A stretch of DNA of 46,078 nt from Oscillospiraceae bacterium. GTDB taxonomy: Bacteria; Bacillota; Clostridia; Oscillospirales; Ruminococcaceae. Of this stretch, positions 7,487 to 43,743 are shown piece by piece. Numbering within the stretch: the stretch's first letter is position 1; each line of letters opens with the position of its first letter. The notes under the pieces are model-generated. The model saw only the letters and a list, made by a program, of their open reading frames with translations. It was not told the DNA's origin and searched no databases. The position numbers and the translations under genes are program-made. Where the stretch lies: positions 1-46,078 of the forward strand of contig JAFLUG010000008.1 of assembly GCA_022508885.1 (NCBI GenBank), given 5' to 3'.

Positions 7487-7537
7487 TCACTCACCGCCGT
7501 TCTTGATAAAAAATTCAGCTTGTACAAAAAGCCTGAT

Positions 7538-7647
7538 TTCAGACTGTCGAGAAAGTCCCAGATGCTAGGAAGCGGCTTGTCAGCCAGCCTTTGTGGCTGC
7601 TGACCAAGCCGCTGACAACGCAGATGGGGCTTTATCGACAGTCTGAA
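7538..7647 (-). repeat. palindromic intergenic element, copy A
   Basis: The ends TTCAGACTGTCGA (7538-7550) and TCGACAGTCTGAA (7635-7647) are a perfect 13-bp inverted repeat. Inside, AGCGGCTTG pairs with CAAGCCGCT around a central AGCC-TTTGT-GGCT (minus strand: AGCCACAAAGGCT). The element faces the minus strand relative to copies B, C and E. It abuts the 3' end of the SRP RNA helix and separates ffs from dnaX. Confidence 0.85.
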
Positions 7648-11934: not shown

Positions 11935-12058
11935 TCAGACTGCCAATAAACCCTCATCTGCTTTGTTCAGCTGAACTTCAGCTTTGCCGCACCACGGCAG
12001 CCACAAAGGCTGGCCGTGGCACGGCTTTCGTGCATATGAGGGCTTCTTGACAGTCTGA
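11935..12058 (+). repeat. palindromic intergenic element, copy B
   Basis: TCAGACTG (11935-11942) and CAGTCTGA (12051-12058) bound the element. The inner arm CCCTCATCTGC pairs with GCATATGAGGG. The central AGCCACAAAGGCT is exact, and a variable stem (GCCGCACCACGGC with GCCGTGGCACGGC, two mismatches) lies between. It begins right after the NYN gene's stop codon and reads in the plus orientation. Confidence 0.85.
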
Positions 12059-13100: not shown

Positions 13101-13637
13101 TTAATTTAACTCTTGTTTACGTTCCTTTTTGCTGTTCACCAGCGGCTTTGTATTTCCGATAAGGTTCATAAGGTGTGTGCTCTTTTCAAAAACAAGCTTG
13201 AACAGCAGCACTCCCAATACGCAGACCACGACCGCCTCTCCGAGCGCGACCGTTCCCGCGCTGAACCAGAACGGTTCTCCGCATAAAAACAGCTCAAATC
13301 CGACAATAAACCCGTTGCTTATTACAGGCAAAAGCGAGGCGACATAGATGTTTTTGATGTAGTACATGGGTATAACCGCAACCGCCGTAGCAAGCGTTCC
13401 GAAGATAATGTCGTAAAGACCGAACGGGCTGAAAAGATTCGCGATAAAACAGCCCAATATCATCGACGCGCAGTAGTCCTTGCGGTAAAAGCACAACAGC
13501 ACCAGCGCTTCGGAAAATCTGAACTGAACCGCGGCGTATGACAGCGGAGCTATCACTAAAGTTAAAACCGCGTAAGCCGCCGCGACCAGCGCAAGCCTTA
13601 CCATGTTTTTCGTGTTGAAAATTTCATTTTTCTGCAT
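13101..13637 (-). CDS. queT: QueT family transporter component (preQ1/queuosine precursor uptake)
   Basis: The 178-residue membrane protein matches QueT-type substrate-binding (S) components of ECF transporters. It has an N-terminal helix MVRLALVAAAYAVLTLVIAP, the conserved YAAVQFRFSEAL segment, and GCFIANLFSPFGLYDIIFGT, and five to six hydrophobic helices in all. The start at 13637 was chosen because AAGGAGA lies 8 bases upstream; the frame remains open further upstream into the repeat element, but that region is an untranslated leader. A preQ1-I riboswitch overlaps its ribosome binding site, which supports the substrate assignment. The energising ECF subunits are not in the window, as is usual for group II systems. 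Confidence 0.9.
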   Translation of the reverse strand: MQKNEIFNTKNMVRLALVAAAYAVLTLVIAPLSYAAVQFRFSEALVLLCFYRKDYCASMILGCFIANLFSPFGLYDIIFGTLATAVAVIPMYYIKNIYVASLLPVISNGFIVGFELFLCGEPFWFSAGTVALGEAVVVCVLGVLLFKLVFEKSTHLMNLIGNTKPLVNSKKERKQELN

Positions 13638-13644
13638 AAAAAAA

Positions 13645-13685
13645 TCTCCTTGTTTTTTTACAATGGTTAGCAGGGACAACATTGT
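13645..13685 (-). promoter_or_regulatory. preQ1-I riboswitch in the queT leader
   Basis: On the minus strand the stem ACAATG/CATTGT (13680-13685 and 13660-13665) encloses a 14-base loop ending CTAAC. The C next to the stem is at the position that pairs with preQ1 in this class. The A-rich tail AAAAAAACAAGGAG follows and contains the ribosome binding site. Layout and tail closely resemble the translational preQ1-I riboswitch of Thermoanaerobacter. Ligand binding would fold the tail into the loop (GG with loop CC) and hide the AAGGAG site, lowering queT translation. Confidence 0.8.
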
Positions 13686-13689
13686 ATGA

Positions 13690-13822
13690 AAGGCGTCAGG
13701 CAGCCGATAAGCCCTCATCTGCTTTGTCAGCCGTGACACGGCAACCAGATGGTTAGCCGTGTCACGGCTTAGGGAGATTGCTTGCAATATCCCGTGCATC
13801 TGGAGGCTTCTCGACCGCCTTA
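13690..13822 (+). repeat. palindromic intergenic element, divergent copy C
   Basis: It keeps the family arm CCCTCATCTGCTTTGTCAGC (13712-13731) and GCATCTGGAGGCTTCTCGAC, but the ends have drifted to AAGGCG/CGCCTT. The usual AGCCACAAAGGCT centre is replaced by CCGTGACACGGC paired with GCCGTGTCACGG around ACCAGATGGTTA. An extra hairpin, GGGAGATTGC with GCAATATCCC, follows. It lies between the queT promoter and its riboswitch, so it is transcribed as part of the queT leader. Confidence 0.75.
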
Positions 13823-16497: not shown

Positions 16498-16518
16498 TCA
16501 GGCTGTTGAGAAGCCTGA
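16498..16518 (+). repeat. remnant arm of the palindromic element (copy F) forming a hairpin
   Basis: TCAGGCT and AGCCTGA (7-bp stem) enclose GTTGAGA. The 17 bases CAGGCTGTTGAGAAGCC differ by one base from the reverse complement of the copy E right end. A T-run 7 bases later (16525-16530) means it may act as a weak terminator for the small upstream gene. Confidence 0.6.
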
Positions 16519-16564
16519 CATTAGGTTTTTTACAAACCGAAATTTTTAAAAGTCGGATACTTAC

Positions 16565-20810: not shown

Positions 20811-20838
20811 ACGGGAGCAGGCATACGCTTGTTCCCGT
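20811..20838 (-). terminator. terminator hairpin, left copy, oriented for the minus strand
   Basis: ACGGGAGCAGGC pairs with GCTTGTTCCCGT around ATAC. Read on the minus strand the stem is followed by TTGATTTTATTT, so it suits transcripts arriving from the FlhB-like gene. It is nearly identical to the hairpin at 20967-20994. Confidence 0.7.
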
Positions 20839-20860
20839 CAGCTTGTAAAAAAGTCAATTT

Positions 20861-20967
20861 TCAGACTGTAGAGAAAGCTCCATATGCGAGGAAGCCGTGC
20901 CACAATAAGCCTTTGTGGCTATTGTGGCGCGGCTGACGAAGCAGATGGGTCTTTATATACAGTCTGA
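20861..20967 (-). repeat. palindromic intergenic element, copy D
   Basis: TCAGACTGTA (20861-20870) and CAGTCTGA (20960-20967) form the ends. The inner stem GCCGTGCCACAATA pairs with TATTGTGGCGCGGC around AGCCTTTGTGGCT, which is AGCCACAAAGGCT on the minus strand. It lies between two near-identical terminator hairpins in the convergent gap between rny and the FlhB-like gene. Confidence 0.85.
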
Positions 20968-20998
20968 CGGGAGCAGGCGTGAGCTTGCTCCCGTTTTC
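20967..20998 (+). terminator. terminator hairpin, right copy, oriented for the plus strand
   Basis: ACGGGAGCAGGC pairs with GCTTGCTCCCGT around GTGA and is followed by TTTTC. It would stop rny transcripts after they pass through copy D. Confidence 0.7.
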
Positions 20999-33761: not shown

Positions 33762-33872
33762 TTTCAGACTGTCGATAAACCCTCATCTGCTTTGTCAGCG
33801 GATTTTCGGCAGCCACAAAGGCTTGCCGAAGATCCGCTTTCGCGCATCTGAGGGCTTCTCAACAGTCTGAAA
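33762..33872 (+). repeat. palindromic intergenic element, copy E, in the gyrB leader
   Basis: TTTCAGACTGT (33762-33772) and ACAGTCTGAAA (33862-33872) are perfect 11-bp ends. CCCTCATCTG pairs with the internal right arm CATCTGAGGG with few mismatches. The variable stem GCGGATTTTCGGC pairs with GCCGAAGATCCGC around AGCCACAAAGGCTT. This is the most complete copy. It falls between the gyrB promoter and the gyrB start codon. Confidence 0.88.
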
Positions 33873-33918
33873 GTGTGCTGATATTTTGAATTGTAATGTT
33901 TTTCACTCAGGAGGAAAA

Positions 33919-35920: not shown

Positions 35921-35952
35921 TCGACTGTAGAAAAAGTCAACTCTCAGACTGA
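35921..35952 (+). repeat. decayed remnant of the palindromic element (copy G)
   Basis: TCGACTGTAGAAAAAGTC resembles the family left end TCAGACTGTAGAGAAAG of copy D, and CTCAGACTGAT follows shortly after. No complete arm pairing remains. Confidence 0.45.
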
Positions 35953-39340: not shown

Positions 39341-39345
39341 GTAAT

Positions 39346-39361
39346 TGTTCCATGTGGAACA
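39346..39361. promoter_or_regulatory. parS site 1
   Basis: TGTTCCATGTGGAACA differs from the consensus TGTTCCACGTGGAACA at one base. The palindrome extends outward as AATTGTTCCA/TGGAACAATT (39343-39364). It is a likely ParB (Spo0J) loading site between gyrA and the GyrI-like gene. Confidence 0.92.
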
Positions 39362-39383
39362 ATTTTTAAAAGTGAGGTTTAAA

Positions 39384-43525: not shown

Positions 43526-43541
43526 TGTTCCGCGCGGAAAA
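43526..43541. promoter_or_regulatory. degenerate parS-like site directly next to parS site 2
   Basis: TGTTCCGCGCGGAAAA matches 13 of 16 bases of the parS consensus and keeps a TTCCGCGCGGAA palindrome. It abuts the perfect site without a gap. Confidence 0.5.
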
Positions 43542-43557
43542 TGTTCCACGTGGAACA
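43542..43557. promoter_or_regulatory. parS site 2, perfect consensus
   Basis: TGTTCCACGTGGAACA is identical to the bacterial parS consensus palindrome. It lies between noc and soj. Confidence 0.96.
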
Positions 43558-43577
43558 TTTTTTTATCGCGGAAGAAT

Positions 43578-43593
43578 TGTTCTACGTGGAACA
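43578..43593. promoter_or_regulatory. parS site 3
   Basis: TGTTCTACGTGGAACA has one base change from consensus. Its centre is 36 bp from the centre of site 2. The flanks AAT/ATT extend the palindrome. Confidence 0.92.
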
Positions 43594-43743
43594 ATTAAAA
43601 ATACACAAATAATTCCGACGCCCAAACGAATATATATATAAAATTACGAAAATTGAAAAAAGCACTTTATTTTTGACGAAAAGTATGATATACTTAGATA
43701 CGTAATCTTATTACCTGAAAATATTGTGAAAAGAGGAAAGACT

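Follow-up and report, generated by a model that had tools for sequence, protein, structure and literature searches.

The window, that is, the whole stretch of 46,078 nucleotides analyzed here (contig JAFLUG010000008.1 of the Oscillospiraceae bacterium assembly GCA_022508885.1), carries dnaX, the SRP RNA gene, the RNase Y gene (rny), gyrB and parB/parA genes, together with a set of palindromic hairpins and associated features (Table 1). The hairpin in the gyrB leader lies between a promoter-like TATAATATA stretch, discerned by eye, and the gyrB ribosome-binding site. Five hairpin copies and two remnants (16498 and 35921) are all present where a sequence-only reading of the window had put them, three copies in the plus and two in the minus orientation by covariance-model bounds, the same split as reported there; the centre AGCCACAAAGGCT is exact in four of the five, as described, the copy at 13696 reading AACCAGATGGTT.

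The hairpin itself was correctly recognized in that reading; the 24-nt tail, the extra arm in two copies and the terminator duplicated on either side of 20861-20967 were overlooked. The description of all copies as intergenic holds for most of them, with the exception of 8 of 152 copies in a wider set that lie inside a mechanically called open reading frame (ORF), including window copy 7539, located within a called 106-aa frame. A called ORF has its start within the copy at 13696-13822: the QueT frame (13101-13799) as called extends into the element but, with a domain match that starts at residue 66, is probably translated from a point downstream of the called start. A Pfam search of 30 of the 86 listed ORFs of at least 90 aa produced no match to a transposase family except for a DnaA-IstB AAA+ cross-match, in agreement with the reported absence of a transposase from the window, and an Rfam scan of the window detected only the SRP RNA. 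Near the parB/parA genes, there are three near-palindromic GTTCYAYGTGGAAC-like sites (39343-39364, 43539-43560 and 43575-43596), which resemble parS sites.

Table 1 Hairpin elements and associated features of the window (G012 is a related genome, 94% identical at gyrB; L021 is one of the compared loci).
Feature	Coordinates	Strand	Basis or remark
24-nt tail with second terminal repeat, TCAGCTTGTACAAAAAGCC on the + strand	7515..7538	-	tail of the 7539..7646 copy
MITE hairpin body between dnaX and the SRP RNA gene	7539..7646	-	model bounds; site called empty in G012
MITE hairpin, extra arm on the left side of the internal loop	11935..12058	+	begins immediately behind the stop codon of the gene upstream
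MITE hairpin, extra arm on the right side of the internal loop	13696..13822	+	model bounds
Collapsed hairpin remnant TTCAGGCTGTTGAGAAGCCTGAC	16498..16520	.	similar scar in G012 at the L021 site
Terminator-like hairpin, target-duplication copy 1	20812..20837	.	26-bp near-exact direct repeat of 20968-20993, abutting both ends of the unit
23-nt tail of the 20861..20967 copy	20838..20860	-	flank analysis
MITE hairpin body at the rny terminator	20861..20967	-	model bounds; G012 has a copy too
Terminator-like hairpin, target-duplication copy 2, followed by TTTT	20968..20993	.	repeat of 20812..20837
MITE hairpin body in the gyrB leader	33764..33870	+	covariance-model match, 120 bits
Probable degenerate tail of the gyrB-leader copy	33871..33896	+	the 26 bases following the hairpin on the right do not align with the empty G012 site
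Remnant: tail and collapsed hairpin	35921..35952	-	tail pattern

Copies, abundance and distribution of the element

A BLAST search with one copy as the query produced 45 matches in the genome of the window (a 2.28-Mb draft in 176 contigs). The covariance model (107 positions, 42 pairs), built from 30 aligned copies with the shared structure written by hand, identified 54 distinct places in this genome at E ≤ 0.001, counted from 106 strand-matches; the family reading, which called for further copies elsewhere in the genome, is borne out by these counts. Matches to the model are present in 40 of the 43 genomes of the genus (24 of 25 in the first set and 16 of 18 in a further set), in very uneven numbers, and in none of the 16 genomes of other families. 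Among 245 genomes sampled from the order, a single one, that of the window itself, produced matches, in a weaker scan in which 15 candidates were scored per genome and even the window's genome yielded only 15 matches. The order scan and the genus scan that covered the first 25 genomes and the 16 outsiders were run with the stricter filters for over 40 genomes. Scanning a collection of 84,980 species for an exact 23-base pattern yielded 70 stretches, all from metagenome-assembled genomes labeled as Oscillospiraceae, Ruminococcaceae, Clostridia or Selenomonadales. The repeats are a family of a small mobile DNA element, a MITE.

The analyses below rely on a set of 163 unique copies, in which the window's genome is represented by 49 entries only and the relatives by fetched loci only; copies of 104-110 nt were retained for the alignment in which pair changes were counted, and those of 100-140 nt for the gene-context, duplication and hairpin-foot analyses. 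One contig of the draft contains a second gyrB-like region (G000:C135:8301-11144) that is 79% identical to that of the window, with a recF-like flank 69% identical; this may be a contaminating contig from a sister species that could slightly inflate the copy counts (the stated contamination of the draft is 3.23%). Two loci from relatives depart from the common arrangement. In one (L163, JAIDPG010000151.1, 4123-4443), three hairpins follow head-to-tail with 1-base spacers, forming a tandem array of the MITE body; in the other (L069, G011:C19, 1501-1607), the outer ends, AAATTAAAG...CTTTAATTT, are quite different but still pair, an extreme case of end covariation.

Terminal repeats, duplicated stem-loops and IS1182-family elements

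Inspection of longer flanks revealed, on one side of many copies, a second end reading TCAGCTTGTAGAAAAAGTCC, along with a GC-rich hairpin that adjoins the element, often on both sides. The first reading of the element, as a simple flush palindrome without target duplication, was overturned by these flanks. The tail end was detected with 0-2 mismatches in 59 of 152 copies vs 7 of 595 control windows, with 3 mismatches in 23 of 152 vs 36 of 595, and with 4 mismatches in 35 of 152 vs 108 of 595, the last value being hardly above chance. The tail is exactly 24 nt long in 39 of the 58 copies with distinct flanks and at most two mismatches. Together, the second end and the modal tail length extend the unit beyond the hairpin, to about 131 bp, with 107 nt in the hairpin and modally 24 nt in the tail, and with the consensus ends CAGACTGTCGATAAACCCTC and CAGCTTGTAGAAAAAGTCCA (n = 58). 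The layout is as follows: left terminal repeat, long hairpin ending in an inverted copy of the repeat, 24-nt tail and right terminal repeat; the small size suggests a MITE without coding capacity. In 39 of 152 copies, the hairpin is longer, 115-140 nt, and the extra bases mostly fold, by eye, as an added arm in the internal loop. This arm, itself variable in sequence, was observed in the window copies 11935-12058 and 13696-13822 as well as at L026, L029, L070 and L144 (here and below, L numbers denote loci and G numbers genomes).

Stem-loops are conspicuous next to these ends. Of 146 unique left flanks of the MITE, 36 have a hairpin foot no more than 3 nt from the end of the element; the controls give 6 of 571 for shifted windows and 6 of 730 for shuffles. 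When tail matches of whatever quality are admitted, a loose criterion given that tails with four mismatches barely exceed the control, 20 of 114 copies have flanking repeats above the 99th percentile of mismatched flank pairs, against about 1 expected, and 94 show no significant duplication. The null maximum, 23.5, is not exceeded by any observed repeat, likely because the null set includes orthologous flanks. Nineteen of the 20 significant repeats are no more than 5 nt away from either end, with 18 of the 19 folding into 5-11 pairs; the repeat at L063 is only a part of its hairpin, and that at L147 is not of this kind. Of the 39 best-preserved tails, 19 are accompanied by a left hairpin and 10 by hairpins on both sides; since this is only part of the set, either other targets, such as stop codons and the gyrB leader, are used as well, or old duplications have decayed.

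Empty sites in sister strains, which the sequence-only reading had proposed to look for, were found by comparison with G012. For 37 of the 49 copies from the window's own genome, the G012 site could be assessed: 20 are filled and 17 were called empty, one of the 17 being a collapsed scar; for the remaining 12 copies, no flank pair was present in the available G012 sequence (1.39 Mb, partly overlapping). At the L004 site, G012 has one terminator, and the window's genome has terminator, element, tail and terminator; most of the other empty G012 sites contain no duplicated hairpin. Downstream of rny, five relatives (G002, G005, G006, G009 and G013) carry a single hairpin of a different sequence near the stop codon, the window's genome and G012 carry two around the element, and G053 has no such hairpin at this position. 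The gyrB-leader site is filled in the window's genome and G009, and the element is absent from it in G012, G022, G006, G002, G005, G019, G003 and G015.

A transposase, for which the sequence-only reading had likewise proposed to search, was found in relatives: the DDE_Tnp_1_6 domain is present in 7 of 25 genus genomes, scoring above the family cut-off in 6 of these. The transposases of this type combine DUF772 with DDE_Tnp_1_6 and exceed the 270-bit cut-off of the IS1182 transposase model NF033551 in G020 (325.5 bits), G010 (277.7), G053 (379.1), G241 (400.3), G202 (401.8), G158 (405.7) and G077 (403.8). The G020 member is bounded by CAG.CTGTCGAAAAA ends, and AGCTCCCCGTTACGGGGAGCT is found on either side of it. 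In G053, the element is intact, 1551 bp long, with a 477-aa frame 77% identical to the G020 member and a 34-bp stem-loop on either side. The G020 protein has matches in 9 of 43 genomes of the genus, namely, IS1182 pieces of 55-100% identity in G020, G053, G019, G007 and G057, and weak matches of 21-31% in the other four; in the order sample, the G053 protein is matched in 44 of 245 genomes. With 98 MITE strand-matches, G053 is the richest of the 18 further genomes of the genus; the counts in the other genomes with IS1182 pieces are poor or middling (1 in G020, 4 in G019, 17 in G007 and 10 in G057). The IS1182 transposase was not found in the draft genome of the window or in the copy-rich G005, G006, G009, G012, G013 and G047 (74 strand-matches); draft genomes can lose repeated elements.

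Seven IS1182 ends from the genus agree with whichever MITE end is closer at 15-17 of 20 bases (12-17 when both MITE ends are considered); only 12 of the window's 20-mers, counting both strands and including the MITE ends themselves, reach 15. IS1182 elements elsewhere in the order carry similar ends as well. Among 11 IS1182 loci, six (L228, L229, L341, L343, L344 and L347) are flanked at the ends of the element by exact direct repeats, 21-34 bp long, each of them a stem-loop in its own right; at one (L345), the exact repeat measures 17 bp and is part of a longer stem-loop that differs in its loop; and four (L342, L346, L348 and L350) show no duplication. The duplicated stem-loops are mostly terminator-like. 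G241 contains six copies of a 1526-bp IS1182 element, five of which sit in five different stem-loops, each duplicated exactly over 20-30 bp; the sixth (L342) is flanked by two hairpins that differ from each other. For the IS1182 family, listings give direct repeats of 0-60 bp. The same duplication habit is found in the MITE, in a minority of copies, and in the IS1182 elements. The MITE family is new, belongs to a known IS family and has the unusual target duplication in common with its autonomous relatives.

Several details of these loci are of separate interest. The stems flanking the L345 element (1413-2934, G037:C44) are common to both sides, with loops that are the reverse complement of each other. 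A small terminator-like hairpin with a T-run lies just inside the terminal repeat at L228 (1320-1360) and at the left ends of L342, L343 and L344, and is frequent at IS1182 ends. A stretch of about 190 bp at L074 (2521-2711, G021:C55), with IS1182-like ends and similar but not identical hairpins (CCGCAGAC...) on both sides, seems to be another MITE with the same kind of mover.

Strand-biased covariation of the hairpin

The middle stem, which was described as differing between the copies while remaining paired, does covary: in the 30 aligned copies, 26 of the 42 pairs have changed on both sides (shuffled mean 15.1). The number of pair cells changed on both sides, 127, was not reached in any of 500 shuffles (34.6 ± 4.5), and six slid registers gave 10-23 such cells, although the structure was drawn from the same, related copies and the slid-register control flatters it. 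The covariation accordingly goes beyond that expected from independent point mutation; a level no higher than this expectation would have spoken against the earlier claim. A stem that changes while remaining paired suggests that the folded state matters.

The mismatches in the stem are unevenly distributed between the two possible wobbles. After reduction of 111 copies to 75 by an ungapped 90% identity cut-off, the forward reading includes 192 A.C and 42 G.T pair cells; by column, A.C exceeds G.T in 24 pairs and the reverse holds in 11. Parsimony reconstruction on one midpoint-rooted FastTree tree indicates 136 changes from Watson-Crick pairs to A.C and 40 to G.T (48 vs 20 in the inner stem alone), the bias being present both in GC pairs (61:20) and in AT pairs (50:20) and retained on terminal branches alone (52:19 and 41:20, respectively). 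Returns to Watson-Crick pairs proceed via A.C 59 times and via G.T 0 times, with Watson-Crick pairs preferred at ties, which may raise the former count; in addition, 218 double Watson-Crick changes were inferred. Given that A.C in the forward reading is G.U (or G.T) on the reverse strand, the latter appears to be the strand whose fold is kept. The mismatches at T13/C95 and T23-C24/T84-C85 are conserved in 92-97% of the copies, and T.C corresponds to G.A on the reverse strand. Cytosine deamination as the sole source of the strand bias is out, AT pairs showing the same bias, and so is terminal-repeat constraint, the inner stem being biased as well. The strand-biased wobble suggests selection on a single-stranded fold, either RNA or single-stranded DNA. 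Of the 152 copies examined for gene context, 113 were classified, the other 39 lacking a usable gene pair. Where the neighbouring genes are in tandem, the forward strand is the sense strand in 50 of 72 cases, so that the G.U-carrying strand is antisense there.

Interpretation and known systems

These observations can be accounted for in several ways. The repeats might be a family of genes for a structured RNA, dispersed by some kind of mobility, with the strand TCAGACTGTTGAGAAG...CAGTCTGA transcribed and the folded RNA as the selected product. The compensatory changes beyond the controls would fit a new structured RNA, as would the wobble excess, which extends to the inner stem and to both kinds of pairs, the one-sided returns to pairing and the G.A mismatches of the reverse strand. 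Against this stand the weaker column-wise bias and the gene context, in which the sense strand is mostly the forward one rather than the reverse. Matches of the element to Rfam families all stay below the respective gathering scores (the best, a weak one, scores 19.2 bits, with a gathering score of 80), no promoter consensus is discernible by eye in the tail, and single-stranded DNA would give the same pattern. We consider an RNA gene family rather unlikely. Unlikely, too, is a purely mechanical origin of the palindrome, whereby template switching within the hairpin copies one arm onto the other without selection on the fold. The abundance of double changes is compatible with such switching, and the collapse scars suggest arm-to-arm slippage, but arm copying should erase the conserved internal mismatches, and the single-side changes are strand-biased.

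A REP-like element, moved as a single-stranded hairpin by a RAYT or another Y1 (HUH) transposase, would resemble the present family in its imperfect palindromes, mostly intergenic location, high copy number and strand-asymmetric wobble, and a Y1 transposase is encoded in the window's own genome. The Y1_Tnp domain, however, is present in only 4 of the 25 genomes of the genus, that of the window included, and in none of the copy-rich G005, G006, G009, G012 and G013, so that among the copy-rich genomes only that of the window has it; the ends and the hairpin duplication match IS1182 instead. A RAYT-type mover, which the sequence-only reading had put forward as a candidate to look for, is rejected by this genome distribution, and we regard this alternative as extremely improbable.

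Very probably, the element is a MITE of about 131 bp that is moved in trans by an IS1182-family DDE transposase favouring stem-loop targets, often intrinsic terminators. The evidence, all of it at the level of sequence, consists of the dispersed family with its ends, the related autonomous elements, the stem-loop duplications, the empty and filled sites and the collapsed remnants. The earlier conclusion that the fold is under selection, rather than decaying, stands as far as the palindromic dispersed family, the conserved ends and the paired, covarying stem are concerned, but was incomplete, in that the element is a MITE with IS1182-like ends that is often located at terminators. In the proposed mechanism, a transposase acting on the same kind of ends would mobilize the MITE; it would prefer DNA able to fold into a stem-loop, often an intrinsic terminator, and attack at the 5' feet of the target would duplicate the whole stem-loop, leaving a copy on each side.

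As a rule, the target duplicated by a DDE transposase is short and nearly constant in length. In the present elements, the length of the duplication varies with that of the target stem-loop (20 to 30 bp among five copies of a single element), suggesting that an extruded cruciform or hairpin is recognized, a directly testable mechanism. Terminator duplication would let the element sit behind genes without breaking termination, and the strand-biased covariation allows one to ask whether the MITE body works as RNA or as single-stranded DNA. A more elaborate scenario, which we offer only tentatively, combines a shape-reading IS1182 lineage that attacks the 5' feet of extruded stem-loops and duplicates the terminator, leaving the host with a working terminator on each side, with a hairpin MITE that acts in its own transposition as a strand-specific folded RNA or single-stranded DNA, is kept by selection via wobble intermediates and is able to gain extra arms.

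No account of the hairpin MITE family was found in the literature searched, nor any description of whole-stem-loop duplication by such elements, with most subscription papers and ISfinder outside the scope of the search. The REP/RAYT systems are likewise many-copy intergenic palindromes but differ in ends and targets, and the Y1 transposase is absent from five copy-rich genomes here. The pneumococcal BOX, RUP and SPRITE repeats are also small, dispersed, structured and probably parasitic, but belong to another host and have other sequences, and a link to IS1182 was not found in the accessible parts of PMC3049150. The IS1182 family in general has in common with the elements described here the NF033551 model, the DUF772 and DDE_Tnp_1_6 domains and, in some members, palindromic targets, the latter credited to Siguier et al. 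2015 in the available text of PMC5678879 and PMC4923244. For the family member ISPse1, the accessible part of PMC3281130 gives the value 4 in a table column that we take to be the direct repeat; an equation of the direct repeat with the whole stem-loop was not found in the accessible portions of PMC5678879 and PMC4923244.

As described in the available portions of the two sources, IS1272 and TnSha1, IS1182-family elements of staphylococci, insert into hairpins without sequence specificity, which are deleted in part or as a whole (PMC4923244, PMC5678879); five of the seven TnSha1 target hairpins are confirmed terminators (PMC4923244), and 3 of 13 common IS1272 copies have targets that are not inverted repeats (PMC5678879). 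In the model outlined there, the outcome depends on which feet are attacked: the stem-loop is lost if these are the 3' feet and would be duplicated as a whole if they are the 5' feet ('pathway b') (PMC5678879). The elements described here resemble IS1272 and TnSha1 in the IS1182-family transposase and in the choice of stem-loop targets without primary sequence specificity; in those elements, however, as far as the accessible text goes, the target stem-loop is partly deleted or replaced, with no duplication, whereas the present elements duplicate the whole stem-loop and look like the 5' foot case of that model, a step that we infer from the flanking repeats.
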